Assembly (NCBI RefSeq): GCF_003669035.1
Contig: NZ_CP033070.1
Location: 1,922,001-1,986,000 of the forward strand
Direction: 5' to 3'
DNA from: Chryseobacterium sp. 3008163
GTDB taxonomy: Bacteria; Bacteroidota; Bacteroidia; Flavobacteriales; Weeksellaceae
DNA length: 64,000 bases
Shown: piece after piece, positions 9,625 through 16,107 of the stretch
How positions within the stretch are numbered: position 1 is the first letter of the stretch
How the letters are laid out: each line of letters opens with the position of its first letter
Translations under genes and position numbers: made by a program
The notes under the pieces: model-generated
What the model saw: only the letters and a program-made list of their open reading frames with translations
What the model was told of the DNA's origin: nothing
The model's database searches: none

Positions 9625-10935
<1,311 letters not shown>

Positions 10936-10940
10936 TTAGA

Positions 10941-10948
10941 CAAATTTA
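10941..10948 (-). promoter_or_regulatory. Possible -7 element of eno
   Basis: TAAATTTG fits TAnnTTTG 23 bases before the eno start. The -33 region has no TTTG, so this is weak. Confidence 0.3.
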
Positions 10949-11052
10949 ATTAAAAAATAAGTTTTTTCGTTATTCGAAGTATGGTAATTGATGTTTTTTG
11001 AGTTAAATTTTAGTTAATATTGGGATTGTTATTAAGCATTAATTAAAATAAT

Positions 11053-11092
11053 AAAAAAACCTTCTTTGAATTATTTCAAAAAAGGTTTTTTT
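11053..11092 (-). terminator. Terminator after the 378-residue protein gene
   Basis: A long hairpin with outer arms AAAAAACCTT and AAGGTTTTTT around a partly paired CTTTGAA/TTTCAAA inner stem. T residues follow on the minus strand, right after the stop at 11107. Confidence 0.75.
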
Positions 11093-11106
11093 ATTATTTT
11101 GTTCAT

Positions 11107-12243
11107 TTATTCTTTTTTCACTGCATCAAAATTGAAACTGACATTCAGAAAACCGAAGAGTTTCCCGTTGTCAACATTATACTTTAAAATTAGAGGCAGC
11201 CACAAATTCTTTAGAATCCTCACTCTCACATCTGCATTGGCAAAAAATTGATTGTATTTTTCGTCTTTTATCAATCCGGAAAAGATTCTTCTGAACTCAA
11301 AGTTTGGTTTAACTTCTAAAAAAGAGACTTCATTTTTCGCTATAACAGAAATATTTAAACCCAACTGAGAAGCAAATTCTTTTCTCTTATAAACAGCCAT
11401 AGAAATACTATCAGTCACTTTATAATGATTTCTAAAATCTATTTCTAAATTTGTTTTTTCAGATTTGATACCTTGTAGGTAAACCATGTTGATATTATAC
11501 TCGTCAAAAAATTTAGAATCTTTTCGAAAATTGCTTTTAAAACCAATTGTCAGCAAAGGTTGACGTTTGATGCTATCTACTTGCTTTTGAAATAAACTTG
11601 CAAAATCTGTAGATATCTGATCGTAATTTGCTGACACTAAATTTGCTATTTCTTTTGGCAGCTTATCTTTTGGAACATATCTTTTTTCTGCTAAAATTTT
11701 GTCGATTTTTTCTTTCAACTGTAAAATCTCTTCCTCACTTGGCTTAGCATCATTACGATATTTTTGAAAAGCAACCACGATGTCAGAACTCATGAAGTCA
11801 AAAAGCTTACCGGGTTCAGTCTTAGCTAAACTTGCAACAGTTGAGTCTCTTTTATTAACAATTGCCCAATCAAATCCATAATTAAAGCCTTTAAATTTAT
11901 AGTCGTTATCTAAATCTAAACCTACTTCTATCTGAAAATTTCTGCTAAACTTTTCTTTCGTGTAATTGTAATCTATTAGCAAATCATTATCTGCTTTTGA
12001 CTTTAGTGAAAATAAATTTGCTTTGAACTGTAGAGCTTTTTTATCACCCGTAATATCTTTTAATGAAGCTTGCATAAAATCTGTAAAAACATCCTTCCAG
12101 TTTCCAGATTTTGTCTCTTGTAAAAAATTGTAAAGATTTGCTGATGATAAGCTATCTTGATTTGTTTTTCCATTTTGAGCAGAAAATAATATCACATTTA
12201 GAAAAAACAAACTCAAGATAATTTTTTGTATAAAATTTTTCAT
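11107..12243 (-). CDS. Secreted, probably outer-membrane protein of unknown function
   Basis: A 378-residue protein with a signal peptide (hydrophobic 6-22, ending FSAQ). After an acidic helical segment it carries many alternating strands such as LEIDFRNHYKV, VSFLEVKPNFEFRRI and LWLPLILKYNV. It ends in FLNVSFNFDAVKKE, which suggests a beta-barrel or a lipid-facing beta sheet. I do not recognise the family. It starts 12 bases after the stop of a small unknown gene, so the two form an operon. In front of that operon is a copy of the palindrome also found before the nearby response-regulator gene. A role in the output of that two-component system is therefore inferred. Confidence 0.6.
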   Translation of the reverse strand: MKNFIQKIILSLFFLNVILFSAQNGKTNQDSLSSANLYNFLQETKSGNWKDVFTDFMQASLKDITGDKKALQFKANLFSLKSKADNDLLIDYNYTKEKFSRNFQIEVGLDLDNDYKFKGFNYGFDWAIVNKRDSTVASLAKTEPGKLFDFMSSDIVVAFQKYRNDAKPSEEEILQLKEKIDKILAEKRYVPKDKLPKEIANLVSANYDQISTDFASLFQKQVDSIKRQPLLTIGFKSNFRKDSKFFDEYNINMVYLQGIKSEKTNLEIDFRNHYKVTDSISMAVYKRKEFASQLGLNISVIAKNEVSFLEVKPNFEFRRIFSGLIKDEKYNQFFANADVRVRILKNLWLPLILKYNVDNGKLFGFLNVSFNFDAVKKE

Positions 12244-12255
12244 GATTTGTAGTTT

Positions 12256-12569
12256 TTAATTTGTATTAAATGAATATGTAACAAAATATGACTTACCTGT
12301 TCTTGTTGTCGGGTTCGGGTCTGAAGTTTTATCATAGGTAAACCCTTCTCCTCCTAATTTTATGACTGTCTTTTTGTTTTCAGATAAAGGATTGGAACCA
12401 ATAATGTACAAATCATACTCACCTTTTAAATCTGTAAAGTCATGTGAAAAAGAACCTTCTTCAGTTCCTTCCACTAAAGGCTTATCATCTCCTTTTTAAA
12501 AAGTTTAAATACAATGCCTAAGATTGACGTTCCATTTTTTACTTCGATGTTTAATTTTAATGTTTTCAT
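12256..12569 (-). CDS. Small protein of unknown function, frame broken once
   Basis: From ATG 12569 the frame runs 25 codons and stops after a five-T run (12493-12497). One added base joins it to the downstream frame and gives 104 residues. The restored product has no signal peptide. It starts MKTLKLNIEVKNG and continues FKLFKKGDDKPLVEGTEEGSF, then a strand-rich body with DLYIIGSNPLSENKKT and ends KSYFVTYSFNTN. This looks like a small immunoglobulin-like or carboxypeptidase-regulatory-like beta domain, but I cannot name it. It is the first gene of a two-gene operon with the 378-residue secreted protein and probably the direct target of the response regulator encoded at 14868-15500. Confidence 0.55.
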
Positions 12570-12597
12570 GGTTATTAGTTTTAAAAGTTTTACATCT

Positions 12598-12645
12598 CAA
12601 ATTTCCGATTTAAAAAACAGCCAATCAATTACACAAACGGGTGAT
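12598..12645 (-). promoter_or_regulatory. Response-regulator site and promoter box before the two-gene target operon
   Basis: On the minus strand ATCACCCGTTTGTGTAAT (12645-12628) is followed, after 22 bases, by GAAATTTG (12605-12598) and the start codon at 12569. The same arrangement with the same 22-base gap lies before the response-regulator gene (15520-15567). The two 18-mers agree at 16 positions. GAAATTTG resembles a poor TAnnTTTG box, as expected for an activated promoter. Confidence 0.6.
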
Positions 12646-12653
12646 TCTCATAA

Positions 12654-12684
12654 CAAAAAAACAGCACCATAAAAATGATGCTGC
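12654..12684 (-). terminator. Terminator after the histidine kinase gene
   Basis: A stem of about 7 bp (CAGCATC / GGTGCTG, one wobble) is followed on the minus strand by seven T. It lies about 22 bases after the kinase stop codon and just before the regulator site. Confidence 0.65.
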
Positions 12685-12705
12685 TTTAATATTTTTCAAA
12701 AGAGA

Positions 12706-13490
12706 TTATAAGCTAATCTTGAAGAAAATAGAAGTTCCGTTTTCTGTGGATGAAATTTCAAATTTCCCACAAGACTCTTTCATTCTGCGATCCATATTCC
12801 GGAGACCGTTTCCTGTTGCATTTTCTAATTTAAATCCTCTGCCATTGTCTGATATTTCCATAATCAAATATTTATTCTTCTGGATAAACGAAAGCTTCAG
12901 TTGATCTGCGCCACTATATTTATAAGCATTGTTTAAAGCTTCTTTGATACATAGAAACATACTACGTCTTAATTCTGTTGAGATAGGTGTTTCAGAAGTT
13001 ATTTGATCTTTATCAAAAGTCAATACAATTGGTGTTTTTTTAAAAAACCCTCGGCATAAGTTTTAGCATATTCAACGAAACTTCCGACGGTATCATTACC
13101 TGAATTTAAACTCCAAAGCATTTCACGCATAGAGATATTCATTTCTTCAGAGGTTTTTAGAAGTTCATTAATGTCGCTTATTAAATCTTCATCTTCTGCC
13201 TTCTGCATTAAAAATTCTGCCTGAAGTTTTAATGCTGAAATCCCCGCTCCAAGATCATCATGCATATCGTGAGAAATACGTTGTCTTTCTTTTTCTATCG
13301 ATTTTTGTTTCTCGAGTTCTTTTTGGAGAAGCTGGTTTTGGTATTCTGATTGCTGAAGTTGTTTTTCTTTGATGTGAAGAAGTTGTTTTCTGTTGTAAAC
13401 TATCACTACAAAAATAATAAACACCACAAAGAACATCATCACAATCGTAATCATGATATAAGTAATTTTGATCTCAGATATATTATCCAT
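12706..13490 (-). CDS. Sensor histidine kinase (NarX/LiaS-like), frame broken once
   Basis: Phosphorylates its partner response regulator in a two-component system. From the N-terminus there is one membrane span (about 9-32), a coiled coil rich in K/Q/E (35-70), and a HisKA_3 block with SHDMHDDLGAG (probable phospho-His77). A HATPase_c domain with KEALNNAYKYS (N box) and SDNGRGF / GNGLRNMDRR (G boxes) follows. The frame breaks at a seven-T run (13035-13041). One added base gives GFLKKTPIVLTFDKDQ and a whole protein of 261 residues. There is almost no periplasmic loop, so sensing may go through the 7-span neighbour whose gene overlaps the start by 8 bases. The response regulator is three genes upstream in the same operon. 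Confidence 0.85.
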
Positions 13491-14127
13491 TAATTCCCTT
13501 CTTGTACTTTAATAATGAAACAAAAAACATTGCATAAAAAACCATATTTATTATAAAGAAGAACAACTGTGAGGCAATTAAAAATTGCTCGTCAACTTTA
13601 TTAAACAGATATCTTGGAATAATTCTAAGAATAAAAAAAACGCCCCAAAACAACAATCCGCTTGAAATCCAAAATTTCGGATCATCCAAAATACTTTTTT
13701 TATCTGGCTTCATTATCTTGCCATAAAACCAGATAAGACTGTAGAAGATGTATAAAAATGAGAATGCAATACCTATAACCTGATTAATTTCTACAAAACT
13801 TTTAAAAATATAAAAAGAAAAAATTACAAAAAAAACACAAAAAATCAGGGTCGTTATTGTTTTTAAGTGTTTGGTTTGGTTTCTATTTAGATATATCAAG
13901 AAAAACACCCCACAAAACAAGATGTAAATATTATAAAGAAAGCCAAAGTTTGCCGTACTCTTAAAAAACAACTGAAAACAGTACATAACGAAGTCCAGAA
14001 AAAAACTTACCATTAAATAAATGTATAAGTATTCTTGTTGAACTTTTCCCTTCAAAACTAAAGAAAGAGAAAAGGCTGTTACAAGAAACAGAACTGATAA
14101 ATAGGCGAACTGAAATTCAGCATACAT
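13483..14127 (-). CDS. Polytopic membrane protein of unknown function in kinase operon
   Basis: The 214-residue protein has about seven hydrophobic segments (roughly 5-25, 33-52, 60-78, 85-110, 117-135, 150-170 and 180-205) with short loops. The layout resembles 7TM sensor modules that are elsewhere fused to kinases. I do not recognise a named family. Its start codon shares bases with the upstream stop (TAATG), and its end overlaps the kinase start by 8 bases, so translation is coupled on both sides. The kinase itself has only one span and almost no sensing loop, so I infer this protein could be a detached sensor subunit. Confidence 0.6.
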   Translation of the reverse strand: MYAEFQFAYLSVLFLVTAFSLSLVLKGKVQQEYLYIYLMVSFFLDFVMYCFQLFFKSTANFGFLYNIYILFCGVFFLIYLNRNQTKHLKTITTLIFCVFFVIFSFYIFKSFVEINQVIGIAFSFLYIFYSLIWFYGKIMKPDKKSILDDPKFWISSGLLFWGVFFILRIIPRYLFNKVDEQFLIASQLFFFIINMVFYAMFFVSLLKYKKGING

Positions 14128-14849
14128 TAGGGTTGCATATTTCCAATGTTAAAATAAGCTTCCGAAAGTGATGTCTCTGCATTAATTACGTGTAAGGTTG
14201 GTATCTCCAGAATAATATTTTGTCTTAACTTTCCATCAACAGGATCATTTTTAGCAGCTGCTAAAAATTTTGTAACAACGGGAAAGCTGCTATAATGTTT
14301 TTTAATATTACCACTATTAAAAGTAATATATTGAGTGTAGCTAAATTTATTTTGGTCAAAATTTCCAGAATTATACAACCTCGCAAAAGCCTCTATACAA
14401 GTTTTAGCATCTTGAGGAAGAATTTCCTTCAAATATTCTCCTTCCAGCATATATATAGTGTCTTCGGCAGAAAAAGTTATATTTTGACTGTCGTTTACTG
14501 GATGGCCGTTAAACCTGAACAATAAACTTACTCCTGCAGCACTGTACACAAAATATATATGCAGATAATCTGAAGTGTATATATTCGCATTAAAAACATT
14601 CCCTATATCATGAATCAGAAAATACTCGGGAGAGTTTAGAAGTGCAAAATCCTGCATTTTTGCAACTTCTTGTTCTGCAACTTTTTTTTCAATCTCCTCA
14701 TTTAAATCTATTTTTAATAACGAAAGAAGTTTTTCATATCTACTATTTTTTGACTTATCTCTATCCCAATTTCCGAAATCTATCTTTAAAATAAGTTCGA
14801 TAAGATGTAATTTCTTCTCTGCTGGAGTCATTTTTTGCTTTAAGCTCAT
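14127..14849 (-). CDS. Cytoplasmic protein of unknown function in kinase operon
   Basis: A 240-residue soluble protein without signal peptide or membrane span. It begins with a charged helical region (about 5-65: MTPAEKKLHLIELILKIDFGNWDRDK) and continues as a mixed alpha/beta domain. It lies 19 bases after the response-regulator stop and overlaps the next start (TAATG), so it is part of the four-gene sensory operon. I cannot assign a family. An accessory or connector role in the signalling pathway is inferred from position only. Confidence 0.55.
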   Translation of the reverse strand: MSLKQKMTPAEKKLHLIELILKIDFGNWDRDKSKNSRYEKLLSLLKIDLNEEIEKKVAEQEVAKMQDFALLNSPEYFLIHDIGNVFNANIYTSDYLHIYFVYSAAGVSLLFRFNGHPVNDSQNITFSAEDTIYMLEGEYLKEILPQDAKTCIEAFARLYNSGNFDQNKFSYTQYITFNSGNIKKHYSSFPVVTKFLAAAKNDPVDGKLRQNIILEIPTLHVINAETSLSEAYFNIGNMQP

Positions 14850-14867
14850 AATTTCTAGTTTTTAGTT

Positions 14868-15500
14868 TTAATTTTTAAAATGGTTAAATTTATTTATAGC
14901 TTCAACTTTATTATTTACGTGAAGCTTTCTGTAGATGTTTCCGACGTGTTTTTTTACGGTATCGATGCTAACAAATATTTTATCTGCAATTTCTTTGTAT
15001 AAAAGACCTTGAGATAAAAGTTCTACGATTTCGGTTTCACGTTTTGTGAGTTCTTCATAATCTTTCTCTTCAATTGTTTTTCTTTCAAAATGATTTAAAA
15101 CTCTTCTGGCAATTGAAAAACTCATCGGGGCACCGCCGTTGTACACATCTCTTATTGAAGAGAGAATCTTATCCATACTTTCTCCCTTGATAAGATATCC
15201 CATTGCACCGGCTTTTAGGGAATTAAAAATCATTTCATCATTCTCAAAGCTTGTACACATGATGAATTGAGATGTAGGCATATCTTTTTTTAACTTTCCT
15301 ATAATATCAATTCCGAGCATATCCTGAAGTTGGATATCCATCATGACTACATCTGGAGAAAGAACAGATAAATTTTTGAGAGCGGCATTTCCGTCAAAAA
15401 ACTGTGCGATCACCTTCATATCAGTCTGGTAATCGATCACTTTCTTCAACGCATTGTTGTAGTTTTTTTCGTCTTCTACTATGGCTATGGAAATGCTCAT
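14868..15500 (-). CDS. LuxR/NarL-type response regulator
   Basis: A 210-residue transcription factor. The receiver domain (about 1-120) has the acidic pocket VEDE near residues 8-11, phosphoacceptor Asp55 (VVMMDIQL), a conserved CTS near 82-84 and Lys in GYLIKGES. The C-terminal LuxR helix-turn-helix (about 143-205) reads LTKRETEIVELLSQGLLYKEIADKIFVSIDTVKKHVGNIYRKLHV, here cited only to place the domain by its key residues. I chose ATG 15500 because the receiver fold starts there, although the frame is open to a TTG at 15539. It leads the operon ending in the histidine kinase. A perfect palindrome 50 bases upstream suggests autoregulation. Confidence 0.9.
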   Translation of the reverse strand: MSISIAIVEDEKNYNNALKKVIDYQTDMKVIAQFFDGNAALKNLSVLSPDVVMMDIQLQDMLGIDIIGKLKKDMPTSQFIMCTSFENDEMIFNSLKAGAMGYLIKGESMDKILSSIRDVYNGGAPMSFSIARRVLNHFERKTIEEKDYEELTKRETEIVELLSQGLLYKEIADKIFVSIDTVKKHVGNIYRKLHVNNKVEAINKFNHFKN

Positions 15501-15519
15501 GTTTGTTATTTCTTTAAAA

Positions 15520-15567
15520 CAAATTTCGACAGAAAACAAAGCAGAAACAATTACACGTTTGTGTAAT
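15520..15567 (-). promoter_or_regulatory. Response-regulator site and promoter box before its own gene
   Basis: A perfect inverted repeat ATTACAC-GTTT-GTGTAAT lies at 15550-15567. On the minus strand it is followed after exactly 22 bases by GAAATTTG (15527-15520), with the start codon at 15500. The same module is before the operon at 12569. Together these suggest activation by the NarL-type regulator at both promoters. Confidence 0.6.
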
Positions 15568-15678: not shown

Positions 15679-16107
15679 ATGAAAAGAAGTATTCTAATCG
15701 CGACATCTTTTTTGGCTGTATCTTTAGTTGGCTGCAAAAAAAATGAGAGCGGAAATAAAAGAATTGTAAAAACCGAAAATTCTGAACAAACGGTTCTTGC
15801 AGACGACGGAAAAGCAGATTCTACGATTGCTTACAATGTTGATGTAAATGGAAAGAAAAGCATCAAAACAGATTATGTTTATAAAGCAACCGACGGAACT
15901 TTGGTAAAAGTTGTTTATGACTATAATCCGGAAAAGAGAACTTTGAAAGTGACTAATAACAACAAGACTTTTGTACTAGAAAAGTCTGAAGCCAAAACCA
16001 ATGAAACAACTTATGAAAAAGCTGATATGAAAGCTACGGTGAAAGGCGACAGTCTAATTATACATCAAGGTGATAACATTATTGAATTGGTAAAAACCAA
16101 AATATAA
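15679..16107 (+). CDS. Lipoprotein of unknown function
   Basis: A 142-residue protein with a lipoprotein signal peptide (LAVSLVGC, lipid-attached Cys19) followed by KKNESGNK. The mature part is mostly beta-strand, with repeats of the kind DYVYKATDGTLVKVVYDYNPEKRTLKVT. The family is not recognised. It is read divergently from the response-regulator operon across a 180-base gap and is followed by a shared terminator. It may respond to the same regulator because the palindrome at 15550 lies in the shared gap, but that is an inference. Confidence 0.65.
   Translation: MKRSILIATSFLAVSLVGCKKNESGNKRIVKTENSEQTVLADDGKADSTIAYNVDVNGKKSIKTDYVYKATDGTLVKVVYDYNPEKRTLKVTNNNKTFVLEKSEAKTNETTYEKADMKATVKGDSLIIHQGDNIIELVKTKI

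Follow-up and report, generated by a model that had tools for sequence, protein, structure and literature searches.

In a 64,000-nucleotide (nt) stretch of the Chryseobacterium sp. 3008163 genome (the window), a NarL-type two-component system and a neighbouring operon share one promoter module, in which a palindrome merges into a TTG and is followed, after 20 bases, by the box GAnnTTTG. The arrangement resembles a constant control unit to which exchangeable, mostly unknown outputs are attached, and it probably represents a conserved, positively autoregulated two-component unit whose regulator would directly activate its own operon together with the cassettes that carry the module. In the proposed mechanism, the kinase would phosphorylate the NarL-type regulator, a dimer of which would bind the 7-4-7 palindrome around a centre at about -43.5, in contact with the -33 TTG, and the bound regulator would help the sigma-A polymerase to open promoters with the off-consensus -7 box. 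The first promoter would drive the regulator operon, which encodes the regulator, a variable M protein, a seven-transmembrane (7TM) protein and the kinase, and the second would drive any cassette placed between the kinase gene and the enolase gene, here a small protein (P104) and the barrel P378. Signal input is probably the task of the hypervariable M protein together with the 7TM protein, and the cassettes would be exchanged between conserved borders and be placed under control through the module that they carry. Binding, activation, the M and 7TM roles and the idea that the cargo serves defence or the envelope are what we infer from sequence comparison.

The module genes lie on the minus strand of the window. 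Before the regulator gene, site 1 (15550..15567, ATTACAC-N4-GTGTAAT) is the perfect inverted repeat ATTACACGTTTGTGTAAT with 7-4-7 arms that an earlier note on this DNA had described, and it is where the response regulator is proposed to bind in front of its own gene; the second copy, ATTACACAAACGGGTGAT, is located at 12628-12645 before the cassette operon (site 2, ATCACCC-N4-GTGTAAT on the minus strand). Each palindrome runs directly into a TTG, a -33-like element (minus strand, 15548..15550 and 12626..12628) placed 20 nt before the -7-like box GAAATTTG (minus strand, 15520..15527 at the regulator promoter and 12598..12605 at the cassette promoter; the opposite strand carries its reverse complement CAAATTTC). 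Written out, the two minus-strand modules are ATTACACAAACGTGTAAT-TG-N20-GAAATTTG and ATCACCCGTTTGTGTAAT-TG-N20-GAAATTTG, and the claim of an identical box separated from the palindrome by exactly 22 bases holds in both cases. The distances from palindrome to ATG come to 49 and 58 bases, one fewer each than the 50 and 59 given before, with the position in front of both genes upheld. The stated 16/18 identity of the palindromes is obtained only when one copy is read on the opposite strand; in promoter orientation the arms match at 12/14 positions, whereas the 4-base cores run in opposite directions, AAAC vs GTTT.

Taken singly, the parts of the module are common. The window holds 13 copies of GAAATTTG on both strands and 10 perfect 7-4-7 palindromes, and a genome-wide search for the loose palindrome alone (≤3 mismatches) hit 214 places, fewer than the 271 of the reversed control. 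The palindrome alone is uninformative and the full module alone discriminates: searching the 4.56-Mb genome for the full module gave two sites at 0 mismatches, which are the window sites, and one further site at 3, while the reversed pattern gave 0 sites. The crowd of random copies that would have spoken against the module was found neither in its own genome nor in the genus scans. A chance origin was rejected on the own-genome scan and on the reversed-pattern control, which was absent from all genomes of the genus sample described below (0/98), and the earlier argument that equal spacing is hard to explain by chance is borne out by a full module that is rare and conserved beyond chance.

Sigma-A promoters of Flavobacterium carry a TTG-like -33 element. 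Their -7 box is given as TAnnTTTG at -12 to -5 in the accessible part of PMC9723704, and GAAATTTG departs from it by a single base at both window promoters, with G instead of T in position 1. On this comparison we read GAAATTTG as a Bacteroidota -7 promoter box that deviates from the consensus, and the palindrome centre computed from the box positions falls at about -43.5. Activator sites are typically centred near -43.5, and the equal 22-base spacing at the two promoters would be accounted for by a promoter geometry with the operator in the activator position.

Conservation of this geometry was followed in 81 loci, comprising the window and the best 80 of 102 relatives, in which the order of regulator, M protein, 7TM protein, kinase, variable slot and enolase is constant. 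In a set of 30 relatives, the order of regulator, 7TM, kinase and enolase was found in 29/30 loci, the exception being L084 from another family, whose available stretch is without enolase. The module lies ≤700 nt upstream of the regulator in 81/81 loci (66 at 0 and 15 at 1 mismatch), and the box stands 15-21 nt before the regulator in 77 of them. The distance is 39 nt in L202, where the regulator match begins only at residue 8, and 324-338 nt in L194, L200 and L212, where a small extra open reading frame (ORF) intervenes. This ORF of ~62 codons, also seen in L132, encodes a product with a GD..CPSK-like end. A C-terminal Cys-Pro recurs elsewhere, as GIGAVCPV ends 135-aa proteins behind other modules (L123, L128) and LCPPGC ends many M proteins.

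The two letters outside the palindrome that complete the TTG are invariant in the 81 upstream modules, and the information content is 1.79 and 1.75 bits per base for the palindrome with TG, 1.89 and 1.76 for the box, and lower, 1.17 and 0.88, for the spacer. Position 1 of the box is G in 81/81 regulator modules and 53/57 cassette modules, a count obtained with a search pattern that itself specified G at this position, though mismatches were tolerated. The polarity of the operator core is fixed yet opposite in the two classes, A-type in 81/81 regulator modules and TT in 57/57 cassette modules.

The closest rival of activation is that the same regulator represses both operons, keeping the -33 region blocked as long as no signal frees it, and the palindrome does adjoin the -33 TTG, where a bound protein might obstruct the polymerase. 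This is nevertheless unlikely, since the activator-typical centre near -43.5 speaks against it and the shared off-consensus G, found in both classes of module, is the shared weakness expected of activator-dependent promoters and fits promoters that need help.

Control by the neighbouring regulator is further consistent with the distribution of the two elements across genomes. Among 98 genomes of the genus (module at ≤2 mismatches, regulator at E≤1e-55), the module was found in 84 and the regulator in the identical 84, with neither in the remaining 14, so that presence and absence agree in 98/98, in line with the predicted link between the NarL-type regulator and both promoters. Five of the 84 regulator matches are partial or with a stop. 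In one genome (G083:C1:1669458-1669934), the regulator orthologue is broken by several stops, yet a module copy lies just upstream. Across 197 genomes of the family (regulator at E≤1e-50), both were present in 55, the regulator only in 7, the module only in 0 and neither in 135, and the reversed pattern again occurred in none (0/197). Some module copies far from the regulator locus would suit another, unlinked regulator that binds the palindromes and counts the neighbouring response regulator among its targets. Such an arrangement is improbable, as module and response regulator are co-present or co-absent throughout the genus sample and no module occurs without the regulator in the family sample.

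The output side shows the same module in front of changing cargo. In the window, the slot downstream of the kinase holds P104 (minus strand, 12256..12569) and P378 (minus strand, 11107..12243), and its fixed right-hand border is the enolase gene (minus strand, 9625..10917), downstream of the kinase in 81/81 loci. P378 has a predicted membrane-spanning antiparallel beta meander, as in an outer-membrane beta-barrel, with a helical insertion. The operon described earlier for 104- and 378-residue proteins stands for P378 but not for P104 as a single frame: here a frameshift splits it into two frames (start at 12569; second frame 12256-12474), and its relatives are intact at 104-106 residues. The second module is present in 9/9 P378-type loci (the window and 8 relatives), at 0 mismatches in 8 and 3 mismatches in 1, in agreement with the expectation that relatives keeping the genes keep the repeats; a P104-type gene is also found in 6 of the 8 relatives.

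Among the 81 loci, the slot is either empty (139-317 bp) or filled (at least 604 bp), and a second module (≤3 mismatches) occurs in 57/60 filled and 0/21 empty slots. The first ATG follows the box by 19-28 nt in 51/57 cassettes; the window is entered at 354 because of the split in P104, its true gap measuring 28 nt. In two loci, L154 and L161, the kinase is separated from the module by an M-like gene (C19, C20). The empty slot of L181 keeps a degenerate module whose spacer lacks one base but has no cargo ORF, and it may be what remains of a lost cassette.

The cargo falls into 24 BLAST clusters. C1 and C4 (~400 aa) are mostly paired with small proteins (C2, C6, C8, C13-C15, C22), further cargo comprises C3 with C5, C9 and C12, and C0, with 28 members, is short with two apparent transmembrane (TM) stretches by eye. 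C7 carries YLATT with pYEATS below the cut-off, C11 is trypsin-like, and C18 we take to be a DyP-type peroxidase. Profile comparison of C1, C4 and C9 did not join these families. L210 and L214 are 99.3% identical over the regulator, the kinase N-part and the enolase, with M 96% identical, and their cassettes differ, C14 with C1 vs C4; cassettes look swapped between conserved borders among close relatives. The two genes named earlier as outputs are indeed behind the module, but they form one of many interchangeable cassettes.

That the repeats are recombination or insertion sites marking the exchanged cassettes can practically be dismissed, for although the second copy comes and goes with the cassette, the first stands before the ever-present regulator in 81/81 loci at the same spacing to the -7 box, no copy at ≤4 mismatches occurs at the enolase border (10917-11107) in the window, and the region is without a plasmid match and P378 without a phage match.

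The proposed autoregulated operon begins with the NarL/LuxR-type response regulator (210 aa; minus strand, 14868..15500), in which a receiver domain and a LuxR-type helix-turn-helix are both present (Pfam Response_reg 2.4e-21, GerE 1.7e-16). It is followed by P240 (minus strand, 14127..14849), a member of the hypervariable M family of ~250 residues with a conserved C-terminal tail (YFNIGNMQP in P240), which is the proposed interchangeable input part in view of its BLAST clusters, profile links and tails. Nine BLAST clusters, M1-M9, occupy this position; profile comparison links M1-M8 to one another and gave no link to them for M9, which has one member (L146). P240 matched 5 proteins at E≤0.001 among 5.8 billion, the window's own cluster included, and fold comparison of P240, with the DNA sliding clamp among the folds considered, returned no confident relative. 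Next comes P214 (minus strand, 13483..14127), a multi-pass (7TM) membrane protein and proposed sensor partner, which occupies the same slot in 81/81 loci and has no Pfam match above the cut-off; the median identity of its family is 29% between 79 of the 81 loci.

In the same 79 loci, two with a short 7TM ORF having been dropped, the partial rank correlation of M and 7TM was 0.33, a value reached by 0/200 permutations, but it was also 0.14 for M and kinase (0/200) and 0.05 for 7TM and kinase (34/200). This co-variation is not relied upon because the M proteins align at 15% identity, close to noise.

The operon ends with the sensor histidine kinase (HisKA_3 and HATPase_c in Pfam; minus strand, 12706..13490), which is split into two overlapping frames in this assembly and forms one open frame of 259-267 aa in 30/30 relatives. 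The frameshift regions (13015-13050 in the kinase, 12474-12500 in P104) lie beside A/T runs in a single-contig genome. The unit of regulator and two unknown genes proposed earlier is supported but was incomplete, since the hypervariable gene of the regulator operon and the split kinase had been missed. On the other side of the regulator, a divergent 142-aa gene (15679-16107), likely a lipoprotein by eye, has its intergenic region in common with the regulator. A homologue lies ≤1 kb from the regulator in 22/30 relatives and at ~2.1-2.4 kb in 7, and none was found in L084.

Several observations weigh against an intact, regulator-driven module of this kind. In the window itself, the kinase and P104 frames are broken; real frameshifts could leave the unit inactive in this strain, while assembly errors would leave the reading unchanged. 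Three filled slots lack a good module (L186, L202 and L215, with 7, 10 and 7 mismatches), and the p-value for filled against empty slots (1.5e-16) is a guide only, as the loci are related and hence not independent. In 7 of 16 module copies taken from outside the locus among the matches listed, the next ORF is 77-279 nt away, and extra module sites in G174 and G130 lie 232-251 nt before a CNNM-like gene. When the regulator upstream regions of the 7 regulator-only family genomes and of G196 and G130 were inspected, G204 and G196 had a regulator orthologue (59%) without a recognisable upstream site, and in G196 the module is present elsewhere in the genome; G130 has a normal module before the regulator.

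The remaining regulator-only genomes carry candidate diverged sites, to which further reservations of the same kind apply. An exact ATACC-N8-GGTAT is found 45-52 nt ahead of the regulator in G151 and G169 (one genus) and in G175 and G194 (two further genera), and shuffling each 120-nt upstream region 20000 times reproduces it once or twice. G173 and G203, of a fourth genus, keep the box and carry the site TTACCAC/CTTCCAC-N4-GTGGAA; the match has 5 mismatches, fewer than in any of 1800 shuffles. Where the putative recognition helices of 18 regulators were compared, KKQ is found in G173 and G203 and KKH in the others; ETVKKH is shared by all four ATACC-type regulators, though also by G246b, whose site is of the normal type, and DTVKKH or DTIKKH is found in the rest. 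The ATACC and GTGGAA strings were chosen post hoc, and in a generic palindromy test 1443-1786 of 2000 shuffles equalled G151, G169, G173 and G175, against 542 for G194 and 230 for G203, with the top palindrome in G169 and G194 being a different one from the ATACC string. The generic test gave no support to the diverged operators taken singly, and the case for them comes down to one string recurring in three genera, which takes slightly from the weight of the main reading. The co-variation of site and regulator, which comprises few independent events, is likewise suggestive only, because the strings were picked post hoc and the generic test is unsupportive; it may hint at binding by the NarL-type regulator and is no proof.

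Beyond the locus, an ORF starts 16-24 nt after the box in the other 9 of the 16 outside copies. In six stretches (L118, L120, L124, L129, L133, L134), the module lies 16-21 nt before a varying 275-426 aa protein starting MKTY or MKTK, apparently a second fixed slot for variable cargo, and several of these, plus L123 and L128, have similar downstream ORFs. A domain scan of 10 proteins from outside-locus regions and other genera identified peptidoglycan-binding domains in L119 (with a sub-threshold CHAP) and L237, M23 with YLATT in L126, trypsin with Endonuclease_NS in one protein in L122, and fused HisKA_3 kinases in three; L118, the first ORF of L119 and L128 gave no match at E≤0.01. Thirteen stretches from other genera, chosen at module copies, include a regulator homologue (54-67% identity) in 10, each with a module copy (≤3 mismatches) just upstream, while L238, L241 and L244 have a module copy but no regulator within the stretch. 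In L241 and L244, from another genus, module copies lie 232-251 nt before an ORF followed by a second one, presumably encoding a CNNM/CorC-type membrane protein and a ClpS-like protein.

Through the module, a short DNA pattern marks the members of one presumed regulon genus-wide although the outputs vary by species, and many orphan proteins become one co-regulated class. The unit thereby offers a testable model in which signalling is constant while the sensed and deployed parts are exchanged. Tentatively, and with less weight than the regulatory reading itself, the unit might be a platform for innate defence or rivalry, in which a constant signalling chassis would be joined to a recognition slot (the fast-diverging M, with its conserved tail docking on the 7TM-kinase complex) and to an exchangeable effector slot of barrels, pore-like TM proteins, proteases, nucleases and wall hydrolases recruited via the portable promoter module. 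If the cargo is defensive, the module would be a marker for new conflict genes in Chryseobacterium and relatives.

Databases and literature offered few precedents. P378, P240 and P214 matched 0 families of PADLOC-DB at E≤0.1 and none of NCBIfam, and the window was without an Rfam match at the gathering threshold. Among seven cargo proteins of relatives, C11 matched RT-Protease_XI (1.4e-5), PDC-M35A (6.2e-4) and LmuA (0.0022) in PADLOC-DB, and C2 and C3 had matches only at E 0.0055-0.015. A search by title found no paper on such a Chryseobacterium locus, which is weak evidence of absence with subscription papers mostly uncovered, and one on pYEATS/YLATT gave only a false match.

The combination of trypsin and NucA is a named conflict type in the diversifying conflict systems of Kaur et al. 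2020 (PMC7159879), whose effectors are peptidases, nucleases or TM proteins, as far as the accessible text goes, and some cargo of relatives resembles parts of these systems in the L122 protein, the trypsin-like C11, the YLATT of C7 with its sub-threshold pYEATS, and the M23 and YLATT of L126. Unlike the systems in that text, the unit is under two-component control, and the window's own cargo (P104 piece, P378) is without such domains; an NTPase core (MoxR-vWA, STAND or GTPase) was not detected by Pfam at E≤1 in the regulator, M, 7TM, both kinase pieces, P378 or the second P104 piece. The accessible part of PMC12799240 describes as anti-phage a different nuclease, of the MBL type, with trypsin-like proteases. 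Both parallels belong to the cargo of relatives.

On the input side, 7TMR-DISM kinases are resembled by three loci of other genera, in which a single fused HisKA_3 kinase (617-668 aa) comes after a regulator of the same clade; a weak 7TMR-DISMED2 match (E 3.1e-4, below the cut-off) was obtained for one of these kinases. In contrast, the Chryseobacterium parts are separate genes, and neither P214 nor P240, the M slot protein, has a 7TMR-DISM domain match. The promoters are like flavobacterial sigma-A promoters (TAnnTTTG) in keeping the A and TTTG of the -7 box and a TTG 20 nt upstream, but differ in the G at position 1 and in the 18-base palindrome that overlaps the -33 element. The closest known relatives are the NarL/FixJ/LuxR two-component systems with HisKA_3 kinases, matched here by a Response_reg and GerE regulator and a HisKA_3 and HATPase_c kinase, and a palindromic operator and autoregulation are usual for them. 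Different from these systems, a hypervariable protein and a separate 7TM protein stand between regulator and kinase, and the output operon is one of many exchangeable cassettes behind the same module, a modularity on both the input and the output sides that is unusual in two-component regulation.

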